From the NCBI GenBank assembly GCA_017557195.1, contig JAFZAL010000171.1, forward strand, positions 1 to 44,316: DNA of 44,316 bases. Direction: 5' to 3'. Each line of letters starts with the position of its first letter. Within the stretch, counting starts at the first letter, position 1. The stretch is from Thermoguttaceae bacterium. Its GTDB lineage: Bacteria; Planctomycetota; Planctomycetia; Pirellulales; Thermoguttaceae. The notes below the pieces were generated by a model that ran no database searches, was not told the origin of the DNA, and saw only the letters and a list, made by a program, of their open reading frames with translations. This document shows, in pieces, positions 13,929 to 28,232 of this stretch. The position numbers and the translations under genes are program-made.

Positions 13929-14098
13929 GCAAGAGGCAGTAGGCAGTAGTTATAGAGAAGCCGCTAGCTATTAGCTGCTAGCTGTTAGCTTGTGCGCTAG
14001 CGCTTCTTAGCGTTAACAACAAAAGCAGGAAACTAAAAATACAAAGCTAGGGGCTAGTAGCTAGAAGCTAAAAGCTGTCTCGCAACTCGCATTCCCTT
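13920..14098. repeat. Heptad element 5 (composite)
   Basis: It opens with TAGGCAA/TAGGCAG-type units, then TAGCTAT, TAGCTGC, TAGCTGT, TAGCTTG units, and a core with GCGCTAGCGC near 14000. A degenerate right part with AGCTAGG, GCTAGTA, GCTAGAA units follows, ending in CTCGCAACTCGCA. Several unit types thus follow one another. It fills the gap between DUF58 and the next Bat gene and includes the DUF58 stop codon. Confidence 0.75.
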
Positions 14099-14107
14099 GA
14101 GATTATT

Positions 14108-15079
14108 ATGAAAACCAATTACATACTGTCGTTATGTCTTATACTGGCTCTGCTGGCGTTTGAGTCAGCAGGCTGGGCGCAAGACGCTTCCAAAGCCGAA
14201 AAGGACGCGGCTCCGACTGCGGTTTCGGTAGAGTCGTCGGCGTCGCCGCTGGAAAATGTAACGCTGGCTACGGATGTTAAATGGACGATTAAAGTCAACG
14301 TCCCGGAAGGGTATGCTCTGCCGTCGGCGCAGATTCCGAAAAAATGGGGCGTCTGGACGATAGCCGCATCGGAAACGCTTCAGACCAGCCCAACAACGCA
14401 CGAGATTCGCCTGACGCTGCGTCCGACGAAATTGGGCGATCAGGTCGTGCCTGCGTTTCCCGTCTATTATCAGGACAAGTCCGGCAAACCCGGCTGCGTG
14501 GAAGTCAAACCGTTTAACGTCAAGGTTGTTTCCAAGGTTGCTAAAAGCGAGGACAATCTCAAGGGAATGGGTTCTGAAAATTCTCTCCTTGACGTCAAAA
14601 AGAATCTTTTGCCGTATATAATCGCCTCTTTGGCGGCGTTAATTGTGATTGTCATGATCTGGTCGGCGTTTTTCAAACGAAAGAAATCGTCCAAAGCGGA
14701 AAAGCCGAAATCTCCGTACGAACTGGCGATGGAACGCATGAAAGCCCTGCTGGAATCCGGGCTGGCTCATCGCGACGTGAAAATGTTTTATGTGGAACTG
14801 ACAGGCATCGTCCGAGAGTTTATCGAACGCACGACGCTGATTAACGCTCCAGAACTGACGACGGAAGAATTCCTTTACAAGATCAGTCAGGGGAACGTCT
14901 TTTCCGACGTCGAACGCATTCGGCTAAAGCATTTTTTGGAGTCGGCGGACATGGTCAAGTTTGCTCAACACGATCCTGGAGAAGCGGGAATCAATACGGC
15001 AATCCATAACGCTGAGGCGTTTATATGTATAGAGATGGAAGAAGAAGGCAGTAGGCAAGAGGCAGTAGGCAGTAGTTAG
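14108..15079 (+). CDS. Membrane protein of the Bat operon, DUF4381/BatD-C-terminus-like
   Basis: The 323-residue protein has a signal peptide (to about SAGWAQ). A beta-rich extracytoplasmic domain (about 40-150) includes PTKLGDQVVPAFPVYYQDK. One transmembrane segment lies near 170-190 (YIIASLAALIVIVMIW). A helical cytoplasmic domain follows, with YVELTGIVREFIERTTLINA and ELTTEEFLYKI, as in DUF4381 and the C-terminus of BatD. In other moxR-bat operons a DUF4381 gene occupies this slot. The last about 11 residues ([12 protein letters not shown]) and the stop codon are encoded by the heptad element that starts there, so the natural C-terminus was probably shorter or different. Confidence 0.75.
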   Translation: MKTNYILSLCLILALLAFESAGWAQDASKAEKDAAPTAVSVESSASPLENVTLATDVKWTIKVNVPEGYALPSAQIPKKWGVWTIAASETLQTSPTTHEIRLTLRPTKLGDQVVPAFPVYYQDKSGKPGCVEVKPFNVKVVSKVAKSEDNLKGMGSENSLLDVKKNLLPYIIASLAALIVIVMIWSAFFKRKKSSKAEKPKSPYELAMERMKALLESGLAHRDVKMFYVELTGIVREFIERTTLINAPELTTEEFLYKISQGNVFSDVERIRLKHFLESADMVKFAQHDPGEAGINTAIHNAEAFICIEMEEEGSRQEAVGSS

Positions 15080-15235
15080 AAGGCAAGAGGCAGTAGGCAG
15101 TAGTTTAGATTTTTTTGCTTCCTATTTGCTAGCGCCTATTCCCTACTCCCTACTCCCTATTCCCTACTCCCTACTCCCTACTCCCTATTCCCCATATCCC
15201 CTACTGCCTATTGCCTACTGCCTACTGCCTAATTA
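15045..15235. repeat. Heptad element 6 (composite, overlapping a gene end)
   Basis: The left arm is GGCAGTA/GGCAAGA units and starts inside the preceding coding sequence. A core with TTTGCTAGCGCC follows. The right part has CTATTCC/CTACTCC units, then a switch to CTGCCTA/TTGCCTA units. It ends 3 bases before the batA start codon. Confidence 0.85.
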
Positions 15236-15237
15236 CC

Positions 15238-16320
15238 ATGAATTTTGAATTTCATTCGCCGCTGTGGCTTTTACTGCTTATTCCGTGGACTATCGCGGTG
15301 TTGTCGTTTGCGTTCCCGTTTGGGAAACGACAGCAAAGCAGATCGGCGATTTTGTTTCCTGACGTCAGCTCTCTGCGCGATTTGCCGGTAACGTTTGCCT
15401 TGAGAATCAAGCGTCTTTTGCCGCTGGTTCTGTTTTTGGCGGGCGTATGCGCGATTGTCGCCTTGGCGCGGCCGCGTCAGGGAGAAGAAGAATTTCGCGT
15501 TCAGACGGAAGGCATCGCTATTGAAATGGTCGTCGACAGAAGCGGGTCGATGCGCGCTCTGGACTTCAAAATCAACGGTCGTCAGGTCAATCGTCTGGAT
15601 GCGATTAAAGACGTTTTCAAACGGTTCGTCATCGGAGATGGCGTTCTGGAAGGGCGTCCCAACGACAACATCGGTTTGATTTCTTTCGGCGGCTATGCGG
15701 AAGACCGCTGTCCGCTGACGCTGGATCACGACGCGTTAATCAGCGTTTTGAACGAAGTCAACATCTCCGATCCGATTTACGACGACCGGGGGCGATTGCT
15801 CAACGAACATCTGGTTCAGGAAGAAAACAGCACAGCTATCGGCGACGCGCTGGCGGAAGGCGTGGAACGTCTGCGGAACGCGGAAGAGAAATCCAAGATC
15901 ATGATTTTCCTTTCCGACGGCGAACAGACGGCTGGCGAGCTGACCCCGGAACAGGGAACCGCTCTGGCGAAAAAGTATGGTATAAAGGTTTATACTATCG
16001 GAATCGGCTCTAATGGGATGACGGACGTTCCTGTAATGCTTTCCAACGGCCGGGTTATCATGCAAAAGGGAATTATGCGTCTGGACGAACAGACGCTTAA
16101 AAATATCGCCAAAGAGACTGGCGGCGTTTATTTCAACGCGAAGTCGACCAAGGCTCTGGAACAGGTTTATCAGGCGATTGACAAACTTGAGAAGTCCAAA
16201 ATCGAAGGGCAGATGTACACGCATTACAAGGAATGGTATCCCGTTCCTCTGTGGGCAAGCCTGATTTTGATTTTGGCGTATGTGTTACTAACAACCACGC
16301 GATTCAGATCGCTTCCGTAA
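15238..16320 (+). CDS. batA: BatA: membrane protein with vWA domain
   Basis: The start is the ATG of MNFEFHSPLWLLLL; an upstream ATG would read the heptad repeat. The 360-residue protein has two N-terminal transmembrane helices (LWLLLLIPWTIAVLSF and LLPLVLFLAGVCAIVALARP). A vWA domain follows with MIDAS motif DRSGS (Asp100), the conserved Thr region of ENSTAIGDALAEGV, and FLSDGEQ. A last helix is ASLILILAYVLLTTT. BatA proteins work with MoxR in envelope and oxidative-stress tolerance. Its stop overlaps an AAGGAG, but the distance to the next ATG is longer than usual. Confidence 0.92.
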   Translation: MNFEFHSPLWLLLLIPWTIAVLSFAFPFGKRQQSRSAILFPDVSSLRDLPVTFALRIKRLLPLVLFLAGVCAIVALARPRQGEEEFRVQTEGIAIEMVVDRSGSMRALDFKINGRQVNRLDAIKDVFKRFVIGDGVLEGRPNDNIGLISFGGYAEDRCPLTLDHDALISVLNEVNISDPIYDDRGRLLNEHLVQEENSTAIGDALAEGVERLRNAEEKSKIMIFLSDGEQTAGELTPEQGTALAKKYGIKVYTIGIGSNGMTDVPVMLSNGRVIMQKGIMRLDEQTLKNIAKETGGVYFNAKSTKALEQVYQAIDKLEKSKIEGQMYTHYKEWYPVPLWASLILILAYVLLTTTRFRSLP

Positions 16321-16338: not shown

Positions 16339-19300
16339 ATGAACTGGGAGAATCCGGGAATTCTGTCGTTAATTTGGCTTGAGCCGATCATTGTCGCTCT
16401 GGCGTATTATTCCTATCGCAGCCGCAAAAAGGCGTTGGACAGGTTTATCGATCAGGACGCTCAAAAGCGTCTGGCGCCCAAACTGTCCGGCGGTCGCGCG
16501 GCGTTCAAAACGCTGTGTCTGCTTTTGGCGATAACGTTTTTTATCGTCGCTCTGGCGCGTCCGCGCTTCGGCGTCTATTATGAACAGGTTCAGCGGCGCG
16601 GCGCCGACATGTTTATTCTTCTGGACGTCTCAAAGTCAATGGACGCTCAGGACGTCATGCCCAGCCGATTGGAAAAGGCGAAGGCGGACTGTCTCGACTT
16701 GCTCAAGGAACTCAAGGGAGAACGCGTCGGTTTGATTATCTTTGCGGGAAAGCCGCTTTTGAAAGTCCCGCTGACGACGGATCAGGGCTTCTTCAAACGA
16801 ACGCTCAAAGATATCGATACTCAGTCCGCTCCGCGAGGCGGCACGCTCATGGGCGACGCGATTCGCCTGGCGATGGAGTCCATGCCGGAACGCACCGACC
16901 GGGATCAGGCGATGCTGCTCATTACCGACGGGGAAGACCACGAGTCGCTGCCGGTTGAGGCGGCGACTGCCGCGGCGGCAAAGAAGATGCGCGTCTTTAC
17001 GATGTCGATTGGCGACGCCAAAGAGGGAGCCAGAATTCCCGTTATCGAAGGACGCAACAAGTCGTACCTAAAAGACAAAAACGGTCAGGAAGTGTTCAGC
17101 AAGGCAGACGAAGGGCTTTTGCAGCAAATCGCGCTGGCGGGGTCTGGCGTGTACATTCCAGCTGGCACAAAGAGCTACGATTTAGGACAGGTTTACAAAG
17201 ACACGCTCAGCAAACTCAAGCACGGTACAGACGGCGTCGAGGAACGAATCCGCTATCGGGAACAGTACCAGTGGTTTTTAGCGGCGGGAATGTTCTTCTT
17301 AATCGTGTATGTTTTGATAAACGAGAAACGCGTTACAAGAAACGAAAAACAAGAGACGAATAACGAGAGGCGGGAAGTGAGAAACGAAAAACAACAGTCA
17401 GCGCTGAGCGCTCCATTGACGTTAATTCTGCTGTTCGTTTTGCTTGCTTCGCCCCAGACGTTACAGGCGGAAACGGTTCCGACGATGGCGTCCGCTCAAA
17501 GCGATTACCAAGCGGGTCATTTTACTCAGGCGGCGGAGAAGTATCAGAAGATTATAGACTCGATTGCGTCACAGAAAAATCCGAACGCTCAAAAGAAGGA
17601 CTTGACAATCTGCCAGTACAATCTGGCGCGAAGTCTGGACAAAGCCGGGCAGTTCGAGAAGGCGAAAGAAGCGTACCTGGCTGTTGCCGGGTCGGCAGAC
17701 GACGCGATGGCTCTCCGGGCGAAATACGACCTGGGGTGTCTGTACGCTCAAATTGCCAATCAGGAATCCGGGTCTGATCCCAAAGCCGTAGAAGATTCCG
17801 TCCGAAAAAAGATTCGCTCTAACGTCAATCGCGCGGCAGAACAGTTTCGAGCCGTTTTGGAAGCTCAGCCGGACTATCCCGACGCGAAAGAGAAGCTGGA
17901 ACGAGTTTTGACCGTCAGCCGCGAATGGGAAGACGCCTGGAAAGACGCCGATTTGAGAAAGGATGCGGAAAAGAAAACCGCGCTGGAATACGCCGTCGAC
18001 ATGGAGGAGGAACTTCTCAAGGCGAAGGCGAAAAGCTCTCGACTCGGTTTGAAAGACGATTCCCTTGTAACGCGACAGGAATACTTCCAGACTGCTGAGC
18101 AGTTGTCGGATTCGATTAAAAAAGCAGAACTTCTTCAGGACAAAACTTTCAAGGCGTTGTCAGGTCAAGAAGCCGCCGCAGCCCAGGCGCAGCCGGGACA
18201 GCCCGCGCCGCAAGCTCCCGTTTTGACCCCGGAACAGCAGGCGCAGCTGGAACAGGTTAAACCGGTGATTGAACAGTGGGTTAAAGACTCGCAGTCGGCA
18301 ATCGAGCAATCGGCTGAAAAGCTTTACAGCAAGGATTCCAAGGGCGCGGCGGATTCCCTGGCAGCGAGCGTCCAGACGCTTGACAACCTCTATCTGGTCA
18401 TGTCGCCTTTGCAGGAGATGATTACCAGAGCCATCAAAGAGCAAAAAGAGCTTATCAAATATACCGAGAAGGAAATTAAAAAGAAAGAGAACGCATCTAA
18501 AAAAGAAGCGGATTCGGATAAGGCAGAGAATAAAAGCGATAATCAAACCAACGACAAATTGTCACAGATTGAATTAGACGAGAACGTATTCAAGCAGACG
18601 TCGCTCCTTCCGTGGACAAAAGCTATCGTTCCCAAAGCCAAGGCAAAGCTTCAGCAGCTTCCGCCGGAAAAAGCGACGAAAAAAGACGACGACGGTTCAA
18701 AGTTAAAGCTGCAGGACAACGCCGAGAACCTCCAGGACGCACTGGACGCTCTGCAGAATCCGGAAGACGAAGCCGTCGACCCGAATTCCGCCAATCCTCA
18801 GGATCAGCAAGTTCAGAAGATGCGTAACATGTGCAAAAAGGCGGTCGAACTCGGCCCGTCGATTCCTCCGCTGGTTCAGTACGCAGCAAACGACTTAAAG
18901 GCATCGAAACTGGAAGACGCTCTCGAATCGCAAAAAGAAGCTCTCCGTTTGCTGGAAGAGATTCTCAAAGACGATTCCGAGCAGAATCAGGACAAGCAAG
19001 ACCAGCAAAACCAGGATCAACAGAATCAAGATCAACAAAACAAAGATCAGCAATGCGACAAATGCAATAACAAGCAAGATCAAAATAAAGATCAGCAAAA
19101 TAAGGACAAGCAGGATCAAGATAAAAAAGATCAGCAAGACCAAGATAAGCAGGATCAAGACAAGCAAGACGAACAAGATAAACAGAATCAAGACGAACAA
19201 AAACAGGACGAGCAAAACGAGTCCGAACAGGATAAGAAGTCTGAGGAAGAAGAGCAGAAAGACGAGCAGGAGGCTCAACAGGATGAGCAGGAAGGTCAGC

Positions 19301-19485
19301 AGGATGAACAGGAGGCTCAGCAGCAAGAGGCGCAGCAAGCTCAGCAAAATGACGAGGAATTGACCGACGCACAAGCGCGAGGTCTGATGCGCCGCGTCCA
19401 GGCTCGTCAGGATGAAAGGAAGAAACTGGAAGCCCAGCTTCGAAAATTGCTCAACCCCCCTGACAAAGTTGAAAAAGATTGGTAA
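16339..19485 (+). CDS. BatB-BatC fusion: vWA membrane protein joined to a TPR protein with Gln/Asp-rich tail
   Basis: The frame is continuous for 1048 residues. Residues 1-326 are a complete BatB: two N-terminal helices, vWA domain with DVSKS (Asp96) and LLITDGEDHE, and a C-terminal helix (WFLAAGMFFLIVYVLI). Residues 328-353 are encoded by a heptad repeat (NEKRVTRNEKQETNNERR...). Next comes LTLILLFVLLASPQTLQA, which looks exactly like a signal peptide with an Ala-x-Ala-type cleavage site, as expected at the start of a separate BatC. Then TPRs (YQAGHFTQAAEKYQKIID, GQFEKAKEAYLAVAG), long coiled-coil segments, and a tail of about 130 residues dominated by Gln, Asp, Lys and Glu. The former signal peptide would now be an internal membrane segment. 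BatB and BatC are usually separate, adjacent genes. Confidence 0.88.
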   Translation: MNWENPGILSLIWLEPIIVALAYYSYRSRKKALDRFIDQDAQKRLAPKLSGGRAAFKTLCLLLAITFFIVALARPRFGVYYEQVQRRGADMFILLDVSKSMDAQDVMPSRLEKAKADCLDLLKELKGERVGLIIFAGKPLLKVPLTTDQGFFKRTLKDIDTQSAPRGGTLMGDAIRLAMESMPERTDRDQAMLLITDGEDHESLPVEAATAAAAKKMRVFTMSIGDAKEGARIPVIEGRNKSYLKDKNGQEVFSKADEGLLQQIALAGSGVYIPAGTKSYDLGQVYKDTLSKLKHGTDGVEERIRYREQYQWFLAAGMFFLIVYVLINEKRVTRNEKQETNNERREVRNEKQQSALSAPLTLILLFVLLASPQTLQAETVPTMASAQSDYQAGHFTQAAEKYQKIIDSIASQKNPNAQKKDLTICQYNLARSLDKAGQFEKAKEAYLAVAGSADDAMALRAKYDLGCLYAQIANQESGSDPKAVEDSVRKKIRSNVNRAAEQFRAVLEAQPDYPDAKEKLERVLTVSREWEDAWKDADLRKDAEKKTALEYAVDMEEELLKAKAKSSRLGLKDDSLVTRQEYFQTAEQLSDSIKKAELLQDKTFKALSGQEAAAAQAQPGQPAPQAPVLTPEQQAQLEQVKPVIEQWVKDSQSAIEQSAEKLYSKDSKGAADSLAASVQTLDNLYLVMSPLQEMITRAIKEQKELIKYTEKEIKKKENASKKEADSDKAENKSDNQTNDKLSQIELDENVFKQTSLLPWTKAIVPKAKAKLQQLPPEKATKKDDDGSKLKLQDNAENLQDALDALQNPEDEAVDPNSANPQDQQVQKMRNMCKKAVELGPSIPPLVQYAANDLKASKLEDALESQKEALRLLEEILKDDSEQNQDKQDQQNQDQQNQDQQNKDQQCDKCNNKQDQNKDQQNKDKQDQDKKDQQDQDKQDQDKQDEQDKQNQDEQKQDEQNESEQDKKSEEEEQKDEQEAQQDEQEGQQDEQEAQQQEAQQAQQNDEELTDAQARGLMRRVQARQDERKKLEAQLRKLLNPPDKVEKDW
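17323..17412 (+). repeat. Heptad element 7, inside the batBC coding sequence
   Basis: Eleven consecutive 7-bp units (GAGAAAC, GCGTTAC, AAGAAAC, GAAAAAC, AAGAGAC, GAATAAC, GAGAGGC, GGGAAGT, GAGAAAC, GAAAAAC, AACAGTC) occupy 17323-17399. They abut the palindrome AGCGCT-G-AGCGCT (17400-17412). No right arm is present. Unlike other copies it has no TAG, so the frame stays open. Confidence 0.85.
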
Positions 19486-19486
19486 A

Positions 19487-19673
19487 ATAGAAGGCAGTAG
19501 GCAATAGGCAGTAGGCAATAGATGGGGATAATCTTTACTAATGCCTATTGCCTGGCGACTAACGTCTTCTATGAGTTTAGGTAAAAAGGTTTAGGCATTA
19601 GGCAATAGTAAAACTTACTACTGCCTACTGCCTACTGCCTATTGCCTTTTCCCACTCCCTATTCCCTATAAAT
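19487..19673. repeat. Heptad element 8
   Basis: The left arm has GGCAGTA/GGCAATA units. The centre has TGCCTATTGCCTGGCGAC and a TTAGGCATTAGGCAATAG block. The right arm is CTGCCTA/TTGCCTA units, then CCCTATT. It fills the gap between the two fusion genes and ends 3 bases before the next ATG. Confidence 0.8.
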
Positions 19674-19676
19674 ATC

Positions 19677-22427
19677 ATGAAATTCATACATACGTTTTTA
19701 TCGTTGACAATACTGACGTTATTATTTCCGACGCTGGCGCTGGCGGGCGAGCCGTCGACGCAGTCTGTTATGTCTATTGACGGACAGCAGATTGGGAATT
19801 CCGTCTACGAAGGGCAGACGATTGACTGGGTTGTAACGCTCATTGAAGCCGATCCGGTTAAGCCGAAGGTGGAAATGAACGACGATTTTCAGCTGGTCGA
19901 ACTCGGCGACCGTCCTCAAAATTCTACCAGCATAATTATTGTTAACGGCAGACGTATTGACAACAGCCAACGAAAGCACATCTATATGTATCAGCTCGTT
20001 CCCAATAAAACGGGCGATCTTCAACTGCCGAAACTTGTATTTGAAACCGAGGGGCGACAGCTAACTGCTGGCGGGGGAACGTTAACGGTGAAATCGGCAG
20101 ACGCACAGGATTTTATTATCATGAAAATCCTGGCGAGAGCGAACGGGAAAGACGTTTCGGAAGCTCCGGTGTATCCGATGCAGAATTTCGAAGTTGTTCT
20201 CCGAATTTGGGTCAAGGCGATTCCGGAGCCAAATTCCAACAGCAACCCGCTATCCATTCAGCAGAATCCTGTGCGTCTGAAAATCCCATGGGCGATGGAA
20301 AGTCTTTCCGATGGATTGTCGACGCCGTCGGACGTTAGCGTTTGGCTGGGAGAGTATCAAAGCTCTTCAGGCGGATTTTCTATTAACGACTACAAAAAGG
20401 CGATGTCCGCTTTTGATCTGATAGACGATTTCGATTTTGGATTTGGGTTCGGCTCCGCTTCTCGAAAGCCGTCGTTTTTAACATTCATGCCGAAACCGCA
20501 GGTTGTTACGCTTCCAGACGCCAACGGGACGGAAACGAAATATTGGCAGTTCGATTTTGTCAGACGTTTTACCGCTAAAAAAACCGGGACGTATCAGTTT
20601 GGTCCCGTCAACTTTCAGGGCGATTTGGCAGTTGGTTTTGAAAACGGACGTCTTCAGGGCGAAACGTTTTTCGCCAACGCCAAAGCGTTAACCGTCAAAG
20701 TCGTTCCGCCGCCGGAAAAAGGACGTCCAGACGATTACATCAACGCGGTTGGTCTGTTTGACATGACAGCGTCTGTAACGCCGGATAAAGTCAAGGTCGG
20801 CGATCCGATTACGCTCACAATTCGCGTTCGAGGCTCCGGCTCTTTTGAGGACATGACCGCGCCGAAACTGGAATCCATTCCCGCTTTTGCCGACAATTTC
20901 AAGATTTACGAAGCAACAGACAAGCTCACCGACGGGCAGATGGAGTTCAGTTGGTCAATGCGTCCTCTAAACGACAATATCAAGCAGATTCCTGCAATCA
21001 CTGCGTCATTTTTCAACGTAGAAACCGGAGAATATTTCCAGATGAAAACGCCCCCCCTTCCTCTGACGGTGGAAAAGGGAACGACGCTGCTGATGTCTGC
21101 GCCGACTGTTCCCAACGCTGGAAACGGTTCGTCTGACCAGAACTGGAAAACAAGCCTTGGAGGCATTCACGCAAACGTTACAGACATCAATCTGCTTCGC
21201 GAATCCCGGTTCAATTTGATGAAATCGCCTTCGGCGTTTCTTTGGATCAATGGGATTATTTATACTGCGTTTATCGCATTGCTGGTTGTCCTGCTGTTTG
21301 TCAGAATGATGAAGTCAAGTCCGGTTCAGGTCAGACGCCGTCACGCCGCCGCTAACGCGCTGTCAGCGATTCGTCAGGCAAAATCTCTGAACAACCCCGC
21401 CGACCGGTTGGACGCTGTCGTCAAGGCGATTACCGTTTATGCCGCTGACAGGCAAAACGTTCCCTCTGCCGGTTTGACGACTGACGACGTGATTCGTCTT
21501 TTGCGTCAGGACGGCTGCAATGACGACAACGTTCTCAACGAGACGCGTTCGATTCTCCAAATGGCAGACGCCGCCCGATTTGGCGGCGTGGACGTCAGCG
21601 TAAATGTTACAGAAAAAGCGGAAAAGGTTATTATGAAACTGCGTGAGTTCAAATCGTCGTCTAAAATTATGGGCTTTCAGACTAACGTTCTGCTGCTTTT
21701 AGCCGTTGCCCTGACGATCTCCGGCTGTTCGCAGCCGATGTCGTCTGACGAGGTCAAACAGTTCCAAAAAGGACTGGACGAATTCTCGCAGGCGCAAAAG
21801 CCGGACGACTATTTGAATTCGGCTCAAACGTATTTGAATCTGATCAATCAGGGCGTCAAATCAGGGGCGGTTTACTACAATCTTGGCAATGCCTACGCAA
21901 TGGCGGGCGACAAACCCCGCGCGCTGGCGGCGTATCGACAGGCGGTTCCGTACATGCCGTCCAACCCGCATTTGCTTGACAACATCCAGTCCGTTGGCGG
22001 AAAAGAACAGTCCGTTCCTCTGTTTGAAAATCTGTTTTTCTGGCAGAACTGGATTTCTTTTCCCAACAAAGCGCTTCTCGCTACGATTTTGTCTGTCTTG
22101 ACGACGCTGACCTTGCTGGCGTTTTTCGTTTTTGGCAAACGTCCGATTTTATACGTCGGGATTGTTTTCGTCCTTCTGACTGCTTGCGTGTTCGTTTCCG
22201 CGCATTACGATTATCATCGATTTGTTCAGACGCAGCATGGCGTTGTAACAGCGCAAAAGGTGGTTGCCCGCAAAGGCGACGCCGACACATACGCACCCGC
22301 TTTAACCAAGCCGCTTACCGCCGGCGTAGAGTTTACCGTAGCGCAGAAACGCGGCGACTGGATTCTGATTAATCTGGACGATTCTCATGAAGGCTGGATT
22401 CCAGCGTCATCTGCGATTGTGTATTAG
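19677..22427 (+). CDS. BatD-BatE fusion: oxygen-tolerance beta protein joined to a TPR/SH3 lipoprotein-like module
   Basis: The protein has 916 residues. It opens with a signal peptide, followed by the beta-rich BatD region (30-510; SVTPDKVKVGDPITLTIRVR is typical). A transmembrane helix lies near 518-545, with a helical cytoplasmic domain to about 650. Then MGFQTNVLLLLAVALTISGC appears: a lipoprotein signal with a perfect lipobox ISGC (Cys684), as at the start of BatE. TPRs follow (AVYYNLGNAYAMAGDKPRALAAY), then two transmembrane helices, and a C-terminal SH3-like domain (WILINLDDSHEGWIPASSAIVY). BatD and BatE are usually separate. An internal ATG at 21633 has AAAAGG just upstream, so BatE could also be made alone. 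The 3' end overlaps the opposing gene by 59 bases. Confidence 0.88.
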   Translation: MKFIHTFLSLTILTLLFPTLALAGEPSTQSVMSIDGQQIGNSVYEGQTIDWVVTLIEADPVKPKVEMNDDFQLVELGDRPQNSTSIIIVNGRRIDNSQRKHIYMYQLVPNKTGDLQLPKLVFETEGRQLTAGGGTLTVKSADAQDFIIMKILARANGKDVSEAPVYPMQNFEVVLRIWVKAIPEPNSNSNPLSIQQNPVRLKIPWAMESLSDGLSTPSDVSVWLGEYQSSSGGFSINDYKKAMSAFDLIDDFDFGFGFGSASRKPSFLTFMPKPQVVTLPDANGTETKYWQFDFVRRFTAKKTGTYQFGPVNFQGDLAVGFENGRLQGETFFANAKALTVKVVPPPEKGRPDDYINAVGLFDMTASVTPDKVKVGDPITLTIRVRGSGSFEDMTAPKLESIPAFADNFKIYEATDKLTDGQMEFSWSMRPLNDNIKQIPAITASFFNVETGEYFQMKTPPLPLTVEKGTTLLMSAPTVPNAGNGSSDQNWKTSLGGIHANVTDINLLRESRFNLMKSPSAFLWINGIIYTAFIALLVVLLFVRMMKSSPVQVRRRHAAANALSAIRQAKSLNNPADRLDAVVKAITVYAADRQNVPSAGLTTDDVIRLLRQDGCNDDNVLNETRSILQMADAARFGGVDVSVNVTEKAEKVIMKLREFKSSSKIMGFQTNVLLLLAVALTISGCSQPMSSDEVKQFQKGLDEFSQAQKPDDYLNSAQTYLNLINQGVKSGAVYYNLGNAYAMAGDKPRALAAYRQAVPYMPSNPHLLDNIQSVGGKEQSVPLFENLFFWQNWISFPNKALLATILSVLTTLTLLAFFVFGKRPILYVGIVFVLLTACVFVSAHYDYHRFVQTQHGVVTAQKVVARKGDADTYAPALTKPLTAGVEFTVAQKRGDWILINLDDSHEGWIPASSAIVY

Positions 22428-25000: not shown

Positions 25001-25027
25001 AACACAAAGAACACAAAGAACACAAAG
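25001..25027 (+). repeat. Left 9-bp tandem array of the GxxExxY cassette
   Basis: Three perfect AACACAAAG units (25001-25009, 25010-25018, 25019-25027) lie upstream of the GxxExxY gene. They are the reverse complement of the units downstream of the same gene. Confidence 0.9.
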
Positions 25028-25134
25028 AAATAATGGTGATTCATTGTTTAACCTTTATCAATAATGCGTATAGTAGAAGCAATAACTGAAAAGGATAGCG
25101 ATACTATGCGTTTGTTTTTCAGCTTTTTACAATT

Positions 25135-25512: not shown

Positions 25513-25514
25513 TT

Positions 25515-25586
25515 CTTTGTGTTCTTTGTGTTCTTTGTGTTCTTTGTGTTCTTTGTGTTCTTTGTGTTCTTTGTGTTCTTTGTGGT
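25515..25586 (+). repeat. Right 9-bp tandem array of the GxxExxY cassette
   Basis: Seven perfect CTTTGTGTT units (25515-25577) and one CTTTGTGGT unit (25578-25586). It is inverted relative to the left array. Any translation of it (CSLCSLC...) is an artefact. Confidence 0.95.
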
Positions 25587-25773: not shown

Positions 25774-26880
25774 ATGGCTAAAAGTTCAAATAACGCTAAT
25801 TTACATTCCGCTCAAAAAGCCAAACAGGATGAGTTTTATACGCAGCTTGTAGATATCGAGAACGAATTACGCCATTATAAAAAATATTTTAAGGGTAAAA
25901 CCGTTCTTTGTAATTGCGACGATCCACGCGTCAGTAATTTTTTCCATTACTTTTCATACGGTTTTGAGCATTTAGGTTTAAAGCGGCTCATTACGACTTG
26001 CTATAAAAGCCAGGAAATGGACTTGTTCAGTCAAAATAACACCGAAAGAGCTCTTTGGTTAGAATATACAGGCGATAAAAACGGCAACCGCGTGCCTGAT
26101 GTTGAGGAAATAGGAATCAATTATTTCAAAGGGGACGGCGATTTTCGCAGCGAAGAATGTATTGAACTTTTGAAACAGGCGGATATTGTTGTTACCAATC
26201 CGCCTTTTAGCCTGTTTCGAGAATACGTAGCTCAACTTATAGAGTACGATAAGAAATTTATTATTATCGGAAATATGAATGCATCTACATATAAAGAGAT
26301 ATTTCCTCTTTTTAGAGATAATAAAATCTGGTACGGTCCTAGTATTTCTAGTGGAGATCGTGAGTTTGGCGTTCCTGATTATTACCCTCTTAAGGCAGCT
26401 GGATATAGGGTTGACGAACAAGGGAAAAAATATATTCGTGTAAAAGGCGTTCGATGGTTTACCAATCTTGAGCATAGCAAACGTAAAGAAGAACTACCGT
26501 TATTCAAGCATTATACACCTGAAGAATATCCGAAGTATGATAATTACGACGCTATCGAAGTTAGTAAAACCGCTGATATTCCCTGCGATTACGATGGTGT
26601 TATGGGAGTCCCCATTACGTTTTTAGATAAATACAATCCGGAACAGTTTGAGATTATTGATATAACTAAAGCGGGGGCGGGAAATCCTGCAACAAAAACA
26701 AAGCAATATCCCAAACAAATCCAAATAAATAAAGACGGGACAAAATCGACTGTAACTAAAATGAACGACGGAGCTGTTCTTGTTGTTAATACGCCTCCGT
26801 CTAATGCTACGTACTATATGATTGATAATACTATGTATATTCAAACATATCCTCGTATTTTAATCCGTAGAAAGAAATAA
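25774..26880 (+). CDS. EcoRI-family adenine-specific DNA methyltransferase
   Basis: The 368-residue protein has the characteristic opening of the EcoRI-methylase family: KQDEFYTQLVDIENELRHY, then CNCDDPRVSNFFHYFSYGF and LKRLITTCYKSQ. The catalytic motif IV is NPPF (residues 142-145, in VVTNPPFSLFREY). The family transfers a methyl group from SAM to N6 of adenine in a DNA recognition site. The sequence recognised here cannot be told. The gene is AT-rich, has its own strong promoter and Shine-Dalgarno site, and is followed 2 bases later by a nuclease gene, so it probably protects host DNA from that enzyme. Confidence 0.92.
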   Translation: MAKSSNNANLHSAQKAKQDEFYTQLVDIENELRHYKKYFKGKTVLCNCDDPRVSNFFHYFSYGFEHLGLKRLITTCYKSQEMDLFSQNNTERALWLEYTGDKNGNRVPDVEEIGINYFKGDGDFRSEECIELLKQADIVVTNPPFSLFREYVAQLIEYDKKFIIIGNMNASTYKEIFPLFRDNKIWYGPSISSGDREFGVPDYYPLKAAGYRVDEQGKKYIRVKGVRWFTNLEHSKRKEELPLFKHYTPEEYPKYDNYDAIEVSKTADIPCDYDGVMGVPITFLDKYNPEQFEIIDITKAGAGNPATKTKQYPKQIQINKDGTKSTVTKMNDGAVLVVNTPPSNATYYMIDNTMYIQTYPRILIRRKK

Positions 26881-26882
26881 CC

Positions 26883-27965
26883 ATGGAAATCAAACTGCAC
26901 GAAATAACGATTAAAGAATTAGTCGAGGGTTATGAGGATAACGGAGAGCAAGGCGTTGTAGCCTACTCTGGAAATTTAGACGTCCGACCGCCATATCAAC
27001 GGGAATTCGTTTACAACAACGAGCAGAGAAACGCCGTAATTGACACAATTGAACGTAATTTTCCGCTCAATACAATGTATTGGGTAGTGAATGACGATGG
27101 ACATTTTGAGGTTCTTGACGGTCAGCAGAGAACGCTGTCAATATGTCAATACGTCAACGGTGATTTCTCGCATAAAAACCTTTCGTTTTATAATCTTCCT
27201 CCCGATAAACAGGACGTAATCCTGAACTATAAACTGATGATTTATTTCTGTTCCGGCGCTCCTTCCGAACGCCTTGACTGGTTCAGAGTTATCAATATCG
27301 CCGGGGAAAAACTGACAGATCAGGAACTTCGAAACGCCACTTATCACGGTCCATGGTTAAGCTACGCTAAAAAGTGGTTTAGTAAAAGCGGTTGCGCTGC
27401 TCATAGTATAGCTGAAAAGTATATGACCCGCTCCGCTATTCGACAGGAATATCTGGAAACCGCTATTAAATGGATTTCCGATAATCATATTGAAGCGTAT
27501 ATGGATCAGCACAGGAACGACCCCAACGCAAAAGAACTCTGGGAATATTTTGAAAGTGTAATCGAATGGATTAAAAATACTTTTCCAAAGTATTACAAAG
27601 AAATGAAGTCTGTTGATTGGCATCCGCTTTATCTTCAATTTCACGACAAGGATTTAGACATTCCAGCGCTCCAAACTGAAATCGCCGCTCTTATGAAGGA
27701 TATTGAAATTAAGAGCAAATCGGGCATTTTTGCATACGTTCTTACCAGAGACGAAAAATATCTTAATCTTCGGCAATTCGACGACATTACCAAACGGGCT
27801 AAATACGAACAACAGGGCGGAATTTGTCCGCATTGCCATAAACATTTTGAAATTGATGAAATGGACGGCGATCATATTAAACCGTGGTCAAAAGGCGGTC
27901 AAACAGTACCAGAAAACTGTCAAATGCTCTGCAAGGAATGTAACCGCCGCAAAGGTAATCAATAA
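26883..27965 (+). CDS. DUF262-HNH nuclease, likely restriction partner of the adjacent methyltransferase
   Basis: The 360-residue protein has an N-terminal DUF262 (ParB/Srx-like) domain with PPYQREFVYNNEQRNAVIDT and the diagnostic DGQQR (79-83). A helical middle follows. The C-terminal HNH nuclease has zinc pairs CPHC (315-318) and CKEC, with DGDHIKPWSKGG between them and ENCQMLC. DUF262 domains of GmrS and SspE sense or hydrolyse nucleotides and drive an attached nuclease domain. The start is 3 bases after the methyltransferase stop, so the two are co-transcribed. It may be a restriction enzyme that spares methylated sites, or a modification-dependent one. Confidence 0.88.
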   Translation: MEIKLHEITIKELVEGYEDNGEQGVVAYSGNLDVRPPYQREFVYNNEQRNAVIDTIERNFPLNTMYWVVNDDGHFEVLDGQQRTLSICQYVNGDFSHKNLSFYNLPPDKQDVILNYKLMIYFCSGAPSERLDWFRVINIAGEKLTDQELRNATYHGPWLSYAKKWFSKSGCAAHSIAEKYMTRSAIRQEYLETAIKWISDNHIEAYMDQHRNDPNAKELWEYFESVIEWIKNTFPKYYKEMKSVDWHPLYLQFHDKDLDIPALQTEIAALMKDIEIKSKSGIFAYVLTRDEKYLNLRQFDDITKRAKYEQQGGICPHCHKHFEIDEMDGDHIKPWSKGGQTVPENCQMLCKECNRRKGNQ

Positions 27966-28195: not shown

Positions 28196-28232
28196 TCAAT
28201 TGATTCTTTGTGTTCTTTGTGTTCTTTGTGGT
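28196..28232 (+). repeat. Third copy of the 9-bp array, downstream of the nuclease gene
   Basis: AATTGATT followed by CTTTGTGTT twice and CTTTGTGGT matches both ends of the array at 25507-25586 in the same orientation. A degenerate start of another copy (GATTGATTCTTTGTGTT) lies at about 28055-28075. The two good copies bracket the methyltransferase-nuclease pair as direct repeats. The rest of 27966-28195 holds nothing else I recognise. Confidence 0.8.

Follow-up and report, generated by a model that had tools for sequence, protein, structure and literature searches.

In the genome of a Thermoguttaceae bacterium (GCA_017557195.1, here G000), the genes batB and batC are joined into one open reading frame, and the joint itself is a simple repeat. 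A tandem array of 7-bp units lies open in frame at the position where a genome of the same genus with separate genes (G003) has the tail of batB, its stop codon and a spacer, and array and fusion are tightly linked in the 12 distinct fused sequences of the genus. On balance, sequence comparison favours a history in which a stop-free array created the fused frame by replacing the end of batB, the stop codon and the spacer, in which case the arrival of the array would itself have been the fusing event. Gene fusions in bacteria are usually pictured as the loss of a stop codon by deletion or point mutation. If the array joined the genes, simple repeats would be a source of new protein linkers; moreover, since the genus also has members with the two genes separate, the fusion step can be dated and tested.

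Layout of the Fused Gene and Its Predicted Product

The window (the whole stretch of DNA analyzed, 44,316 nucleotides of contig JAFZAL010000171.1) carries the fused gene and its upstream neighbor as follows.

15211..16320, plus strand: batA (VWA domain), upstream neighbor of batB–batC
16339..19485, plus strand: fused batB–batC reading frame, 1048 codons, with a VWA domain (PF13519/PF00092) within residues 90–263
16339..17319, plus strand: BatB part, residues 1–327, with two N-terminal hydrophobic segments, the VWA domain and a third hydrophobic segment at 309–327
17323..17399, plus strand: eleven 7-bp units in perfect phase, consensus GAGAAAC, in-frame peptide EKRVTRNEKQETNNERREVRNEKQQ
17400..17412, plus strand: AGCGCTGAGCGCT, a doublet of a self-complementary hexamer directly 3' of the array
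17398..17469, plus strand: signal-peptide-like segment, residues 354–377, which aligns with where the separate BatC of G003 begins
17413..19485, plus strand: BatC part, with a Q/D/K-rich C-terminal third and a weak, sub-threshold TPR signal
17416..17418, plus strand: TTG codon, residue 360 (ATG in G001), a possible former or still used batC start

As the original prediction had it, the frame of 1048 codons is open throughout, a C-terminal membrane helix of BatB (hydrophobic residues 309–327) ends just ahead of the array, and a signal-peptide-like segment of BatC, hydrophobic over residues 354–372, follows right after it. Pfam profiles (PF13519, 5.1e-20; PF00092, 8.3e-13) place the VWA domain between the N- and C-terminal membrane segments, and the BatB part is 85% identical to the separate BatB of G003. 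The BatB profile NF047506 gives the fused protein 107.9 bits, under its cut-off of 350, and TPR_12 in the BatC part reaches an E-value of 0.0013 and 19.3 bits against a cut-off of 30.1. The predicted product is a single membrane protein with the VWA domain outside and a charged linker (8 basic and 6 acidic among 31 residues) inside, in which the former BatC signal peptide would serve as a fourth membrane segment carrying BatC outside. Signal peptidase might cut this predicted protein after residue 377.

The TTG codon raises the question of whether BatC is still made alone from position 17416, beside or instead of the fusion, which is compatible with any history of the joint and which we consider rather unlikely. 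Where G001 has ATG, G000 and G002 have TTG; both codons are usable starts. Methionine occupies the position in 4 of the 12 fused sequences, and the signal-peptide-like segment is kept. However, leucine is found in the other 8, the match of the ATG of G001 to that of G003 hinges on a 6-nt gap and, since no stop codon ends BatB before BatC, ribosomes starting at batB are expected to read on.

Structure of the Array at the Joint

The array is perfect in phase and worn in its units: the GAGAAAC consensus is matched at 58 of 77 positions and in full by 2 of the 11 units. Residues 328–353 had been assigned to the element; the eleven in-phase units and the palindrome are indeed there, with an extent one codon off, as the array spans codons 329–353 plus the first two bases of codon 354. 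It is readable in one frame, each of the other two having a stop within the array, and its peptide approximates a seven-residue cycle, which is unavoidable for any 7-bp array. Identity at lag 7 is 0.575 over codons 326–354; codon shuffles average 0.346, with 0 of 20,000 as high, and synonymous resampling of the same peptide reaches the observed value in 61 of 20,000 cases. Among 67,392 other 87-bp windows in the called genes of a 303.6-kb sample of the genome, 45 are as periodic as the joint, all within four loci that hold other in-gene arrays. The codon shuffles and the coding windows together rule out chance A-rich coding as the source of the periodicity.

The joint carries one arm only. An RNA hairpin at this site is ruled out by the folding of positions 17310–17430 (z +0.33), while two of the intergenic heptad elements of the genome do form such hairpins (z −5.74 and −3.52). 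The AGCGCTGAGCGCT doublet is possibly the center of a truncated element, to be compared with the GC-rich centers of the intergenic elements. Comparison by eye with G003, which lacks the array at this site and has a different spacer along its whole length, showed no target-site duplication.

Within the linker (codons 328–353), base differences from G001 comprise 0 synonymous and 3 amino-acid-changing ones, and those from G002 comprise 1 and 4; in codons 1–327, the corresponding numbers are 35 and 5 for G001 and 35 and 4 for G002. Selection on the linker amino acids is not supported, as the differences there are mostly amino-acid changing. The sequence of the linker is loosely held and its length strictly held.

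Fused and Separate Relatives within the Genus

A homologue search over 60 genomes, G000 included, gave matches in 45, three of which besides G000 belong to the genus (G001, G002 and G003). In G001 and G002, 93–94% identical, fusion and array are as in G000. In G003, the genes are separate: batB ends in TAA, followed by a 35-bp AT-rich spacer and the ATG of batC, with no array. The original prediction looked to relatives for separate genes with an ordinary element between them; G003 supplies the separate genes and lacks the element. No separate batB–batC pair with an array was seen in the genus, where the junction DNA of one separate member (G003) was examined.

Database proteins extend this picture. 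A search with the BatC part (7,994 candidates scored) yielded 13 proteins at E-values up to 1e-60. Nine of them have the fused length, and each of the nine carries the linker; the other four have the separate length. Together with G000–G002, the nine make 12 distinct fused sequences, and the linker is present in all 12, at one length and with nine variable positions. The four separate BatC proteins (P0010–P0013, 54–69% identity) begin with their own methionine. A further search gave 177 proteins, 120 of them listed, and six were examined; the separate BatB relatives P0014–P0018 (70–95% identity), five in number, end in short tails. In the separate BatB, a short ISDRK-type tail and then the stop occupy the position where the array starts in the fused form.

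An assembly or sequencing artefact at the joint is most improbable. The sequences do come from metagenome assemblies or unnamed sources; nevertheless, 12 distinct fused sequences agree at one linker length, and since G001, G002 and nine database proteins share the linker, it is not a lone sequencing slip of the sort that the original prediction had named, an indel closing a real stop. In the batB tail of G003, 12 bases resemble the start of an Illumina adapter; the SDRK motif also occurs in P0014, P0015 and P0016, and the tail was taken as natural. P0014 is identical to the fused P0006 at 257 of 257 residues through residue 257 and then has an ending of the separate type; it may be a recombinant strain or a chimeric contig.

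Direction of the Change

A BatB tree was built from 22 rows, 18 of them different, with four outgroups picked among the split rows, and a single change on it accounts for the fused state. Support for grouping the fused rows together is weak (37/87; 34% of bootstrap trees), and P0014 sits unresolved among them. Since the split P0015–P0018 and G003 lie around the fused rows, the fusion is taken as derived; separate genes are likely the older state, with tree support that is weak and not firm. A wider tree of 60 rows covers the family and the order, omitting G109 and G105, whose BatB is cut short. Here, G003 falls among the three fused genomes with weak support (91/28), the sister group of the genus contains 18 fused and 14 split rows, and the fused/split label changes nine times, at least seven of them by well-supported branches.

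The Junction in the Family and the Order

BatB was found at E-values up to 1e-25 in 54 of 119 family genomes, and these, together with the eight order genomes with the strongest matches, gave 62 loci, 32 fused and 30 not. A locus is counted as fused where the BatB frame goes on by over 150 residues; a single match reaches the BatC part in roughly half of these 32 loci, and in the rest the identity of the tail is not established. A split locus is one where the BatB frame ends, and in several of these genomes batC does not come next. Arrays at the joint exceed the scan threshold in G000, G001, G032 and G067, with G002 just under it (0.54). The array calls for G116, G068, G071, G109 and G105 rest on a whole-locus scan, which at control lags returned two arrays, both in one locus (G133).

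Thus, three different arrays have reached the batB–batC junction, with three outcomes. Besides the fusion described above, a GAGTTGA array in G032 lies at the junction of separate genes and supplies the stop of batB. In G067 (L102, batB end at 2081), the ATG of batC overlaps the TGA of batB, and an open CAAATCT array encodes the N-terminal residues of BatC (644 residues in all), ahead of its signal-peptide-like segment. An ordinary element between separate batB and batC, sought by the original prediction, therefore exists in G032 and G067, in other genera of the same family and with other units, and was not seen in this genus.

Of the 32 fused loci of family and order, 29 have no array. The same fusion without a repeat, which the original prediction had named as contrary evidence, is thus common outside the genus; within it, none of the 12 fused sequences is of that kind. 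The 29 loci speak for an order of events in which the fusion came first by ordinary stop loss, and a heptad array later grew or inserted in a tolerant linker. We regard this order as possible, though somewhat unlikely, since the array is present in all 12 fused sequences of the genus and, by eye against G003, nothing recognizable of the former BatB tail or spacer is left beside it.

How an Array Could Join Two Genes

The favored account, in which the array itself made the fusion, would run as follows. From an ancestral state of separate batB and batC, a stop-free 7-bp array would have taken the place of the batB tail, stop and spacer, beginning right after the last BatB membrane helix and stopping just short of the BatC start region, and would so have bridged the two frames into one long gene. 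Three 7-bp units make seven codons, so a stop-free unit gives the same seven-residue cycle in all three frames, and therefore the relative frame of two genes is no obstacle to their being bridged by an array; this holds for the consensus unit, the worn copy being open in one. The linker would then probably work as a tolerated spacer, given changes that mostly alter amino acids and a frame and length that are the same in 12 sequences.

The claim that an intergenic element turned two genes into one finds backing in the separate genes of G003 and other relatives, in the single change on the 22-row tree and in the arrays at the junction of separate genes in G032 and G067, and is weakened by the frequency of fusions without arrays. 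The further step, that the element became readable by losing its stops, is not required: GAGAAAC is stop-free in every rotation, and 33 of 53 well-kept arrays of the sample have a consensus that is stop-free on the plus strand. The strict form of this idea, in which point mutations removed the stops from a stop-bearing GAGTAAC-type element lying between the two separate genes, is improbable. Short GAGTAGC/GAGTAAC stretches do occur in the genome, two of them within the window, and G032 illustrates an ordinary array between separate batB and batC; against it stand these stop-free consensus sequences and the lack of any such intermediate in G003.

A Second Fusion in the Same Operon

The operon contains another fused frame downstream.

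19677..22427, plus strand: batD–batE reading frame, second fusion of the operon, with its joint near 21594–21713

The genes batD and batE form a single frame in the three genomes G000, G001 and G002; in G003 they are separate, the BatD stop overlapping the BatE start. The joint in G000 has no heptad array (lag-7 identity 0.20). Since both fusions are common to the same three genomes and just one of them has an array, an array is not needed for fusion, which is a further point for the fusion having preceded the array at batB–batC.

Heptad Arrays Elsewhere in the Genome

The 303.6-kb sample was annotated with a simple script (139 genes, 71% coding), which misses genes and shortens starts. It holds 60 lag-7 arrays at a lax threshold and 24 at a strict one, of which 7 and 1 lie inside called genes, and none at control lags 5, 8, 10, 11 and 13. 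In a further 189.0 kb, 21 lag-7 arrays were found (two at lag 11), three of them in long frames and one of these (L189) plausible. Besides batB–batC, six and perhaps a seventh of the sampled genes contain an array that is open in frame; those of the 303.6-kb sample, which have no stop by construction, lie at the following positions.

L134, 2559–2656: in-gene array
L139, 11104–11182: in-gene array
L141, 11137–11258: in-gene array
L141, 17020–17103: in-gene array
L149, 3401–3486: in-gene array
L149, 7721–7832: in-gene array

The conserved genes bearing them encode a tandem ABC ATPase, an ApbE-like protein, a CoA transferase, an FtsX/MacB-like protein, an Hsp70-like protein and an Omp85 protein, and the array peptides include GNRQEAxGNS and TAYCLLPTAS. 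In the Hsp70-like and ABC proteins, the peptides indicate that the type of unit differs between sister species at the same site. In the CoA transferase, the array lies in a linker; four relatives have no array there and still encode the protein in one frame, so a linker that already exists can receive an array. In-frame arrays in other genes are in keeping with the favored account; those in these six proteins also count for the possibility that the batB–batC array entered a gene already fused. No gene fusion was seen at the six other in-gene arrays, three of which were compared with relatives.

Raw pattern matching finds the unit type of the joint at 32 places in the genome, three of which are the joint array itself, and a reversed control pattern at 58; thus, a genome-wide family of this unit type was not found. 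The in-gene arrays also suggest that several genes of this genome contain, open in frame, tandem repeats with a unit length not divisible by three, in a place that repeat surveys would hardly search. A broader proposal, which we advance only tentatively, is that heptad arrays act as frame-blind gene welders, fusing genes in any relative frame when they land on junctions, and that the genus so makes new linkers, signal-peptide ends and fusions.

Relation to Known Systems

Each component of this case has appeared in print on its own: arrays of heptamers both within genes and between them, palindromic elements read in frame, tandem repeats in coding sequence and fusions of batB with batC (PMC4679880, PMC3488679, PMC10969869, PMC2229807, PMC9879509, PMC3557215). 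The TAACTGA arrays of Beggiatoaceae are tandem 7-bp units, mostly intergenic, with some within or at the ends of ORFs, and the authors raise the possibility that modular proteins could tolerate such repeats between their subunits, or that a repeat could split a protein (PMC4679880). In the P6b region of a Nostoc tRNA-Leu intron, heptanucleotide repeats pair into a hairpin (PMC3488679), which resembles the intergenic heptad elements of the present genome. The arrays described here share with these heptamers the tandem 7-bp unit, the many copies and a location mostly outside genes (60 arrays in 303.6 kb, 7 in called genes); however, the available text of those papers describes no gene fusion at a repeat, and here the units differ between sites and species.

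Dispersed repeats of the MITE type, Rickettsia palindromic elements among them, lie between genes and also in frame inside conserved genes, and in one Yersinia case the element forms part of a predicted signal peptide (PMC10969869, PMC2229807). The in-frame position inside an ORF is shared by the joint array, and the Yersinia case is comparable to the array at the BatC N-terminus of G067. Those elements are palindromic and about 100–200 bp long, whereas the joint array consists of one-armed 7-bp units, forms no hairpin and lies at the joint of genes that are separate in relatives. In Borg genes, tandem repeats in ORFs make new disordered protein segments, with unit lengths all divisible by three (PMC9879509), unlike the 7-bp unit of the joint. 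Finally, batB and batC are fused in Leptospira biflexa and separate in related species, and a Bat complex has been proposed (PMC3557215); the same two genes are involved, and the portion of that paper at hand mentions no repeat at the joint. In the open-licence literature, no description of a heptad array at a gene-fusion joint was found, and what appears to be new here is the placing of an in-frame repeat insertion at such a joint.

Heptad Elements in the Operon Gaps and Other Repeats

The gaps of the operon carry heptad elements of their own.

13929..14107: heptad-bearing gap further upstream in the operon, which differs between species
15046..15231: heptad element with two arms, ahead of batA
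19486..19660: heptad element with two arms in the batC–batD gap, with other units in a sister species

In these gaps, heptad elements are swapped for other units between genomes while the gene ends are kept, which is the mode of replacement proposed above for the batB–batC junction. The comparison covers four genomes for one gap and three for each of the other two. In the batC–batD gap, both arms of the element differ together between sister species. Further downstream, 9-bp repeats TTCTTTGTG or their complement at 25001–25029, 25513–25584 and 28204–28230 bracket a block with two ORFs (25774–26880 and 26883–27965), whose products seem similar to a DNA modification enzyme and to an HNH protein, and the bracketed block is a possible insertion.
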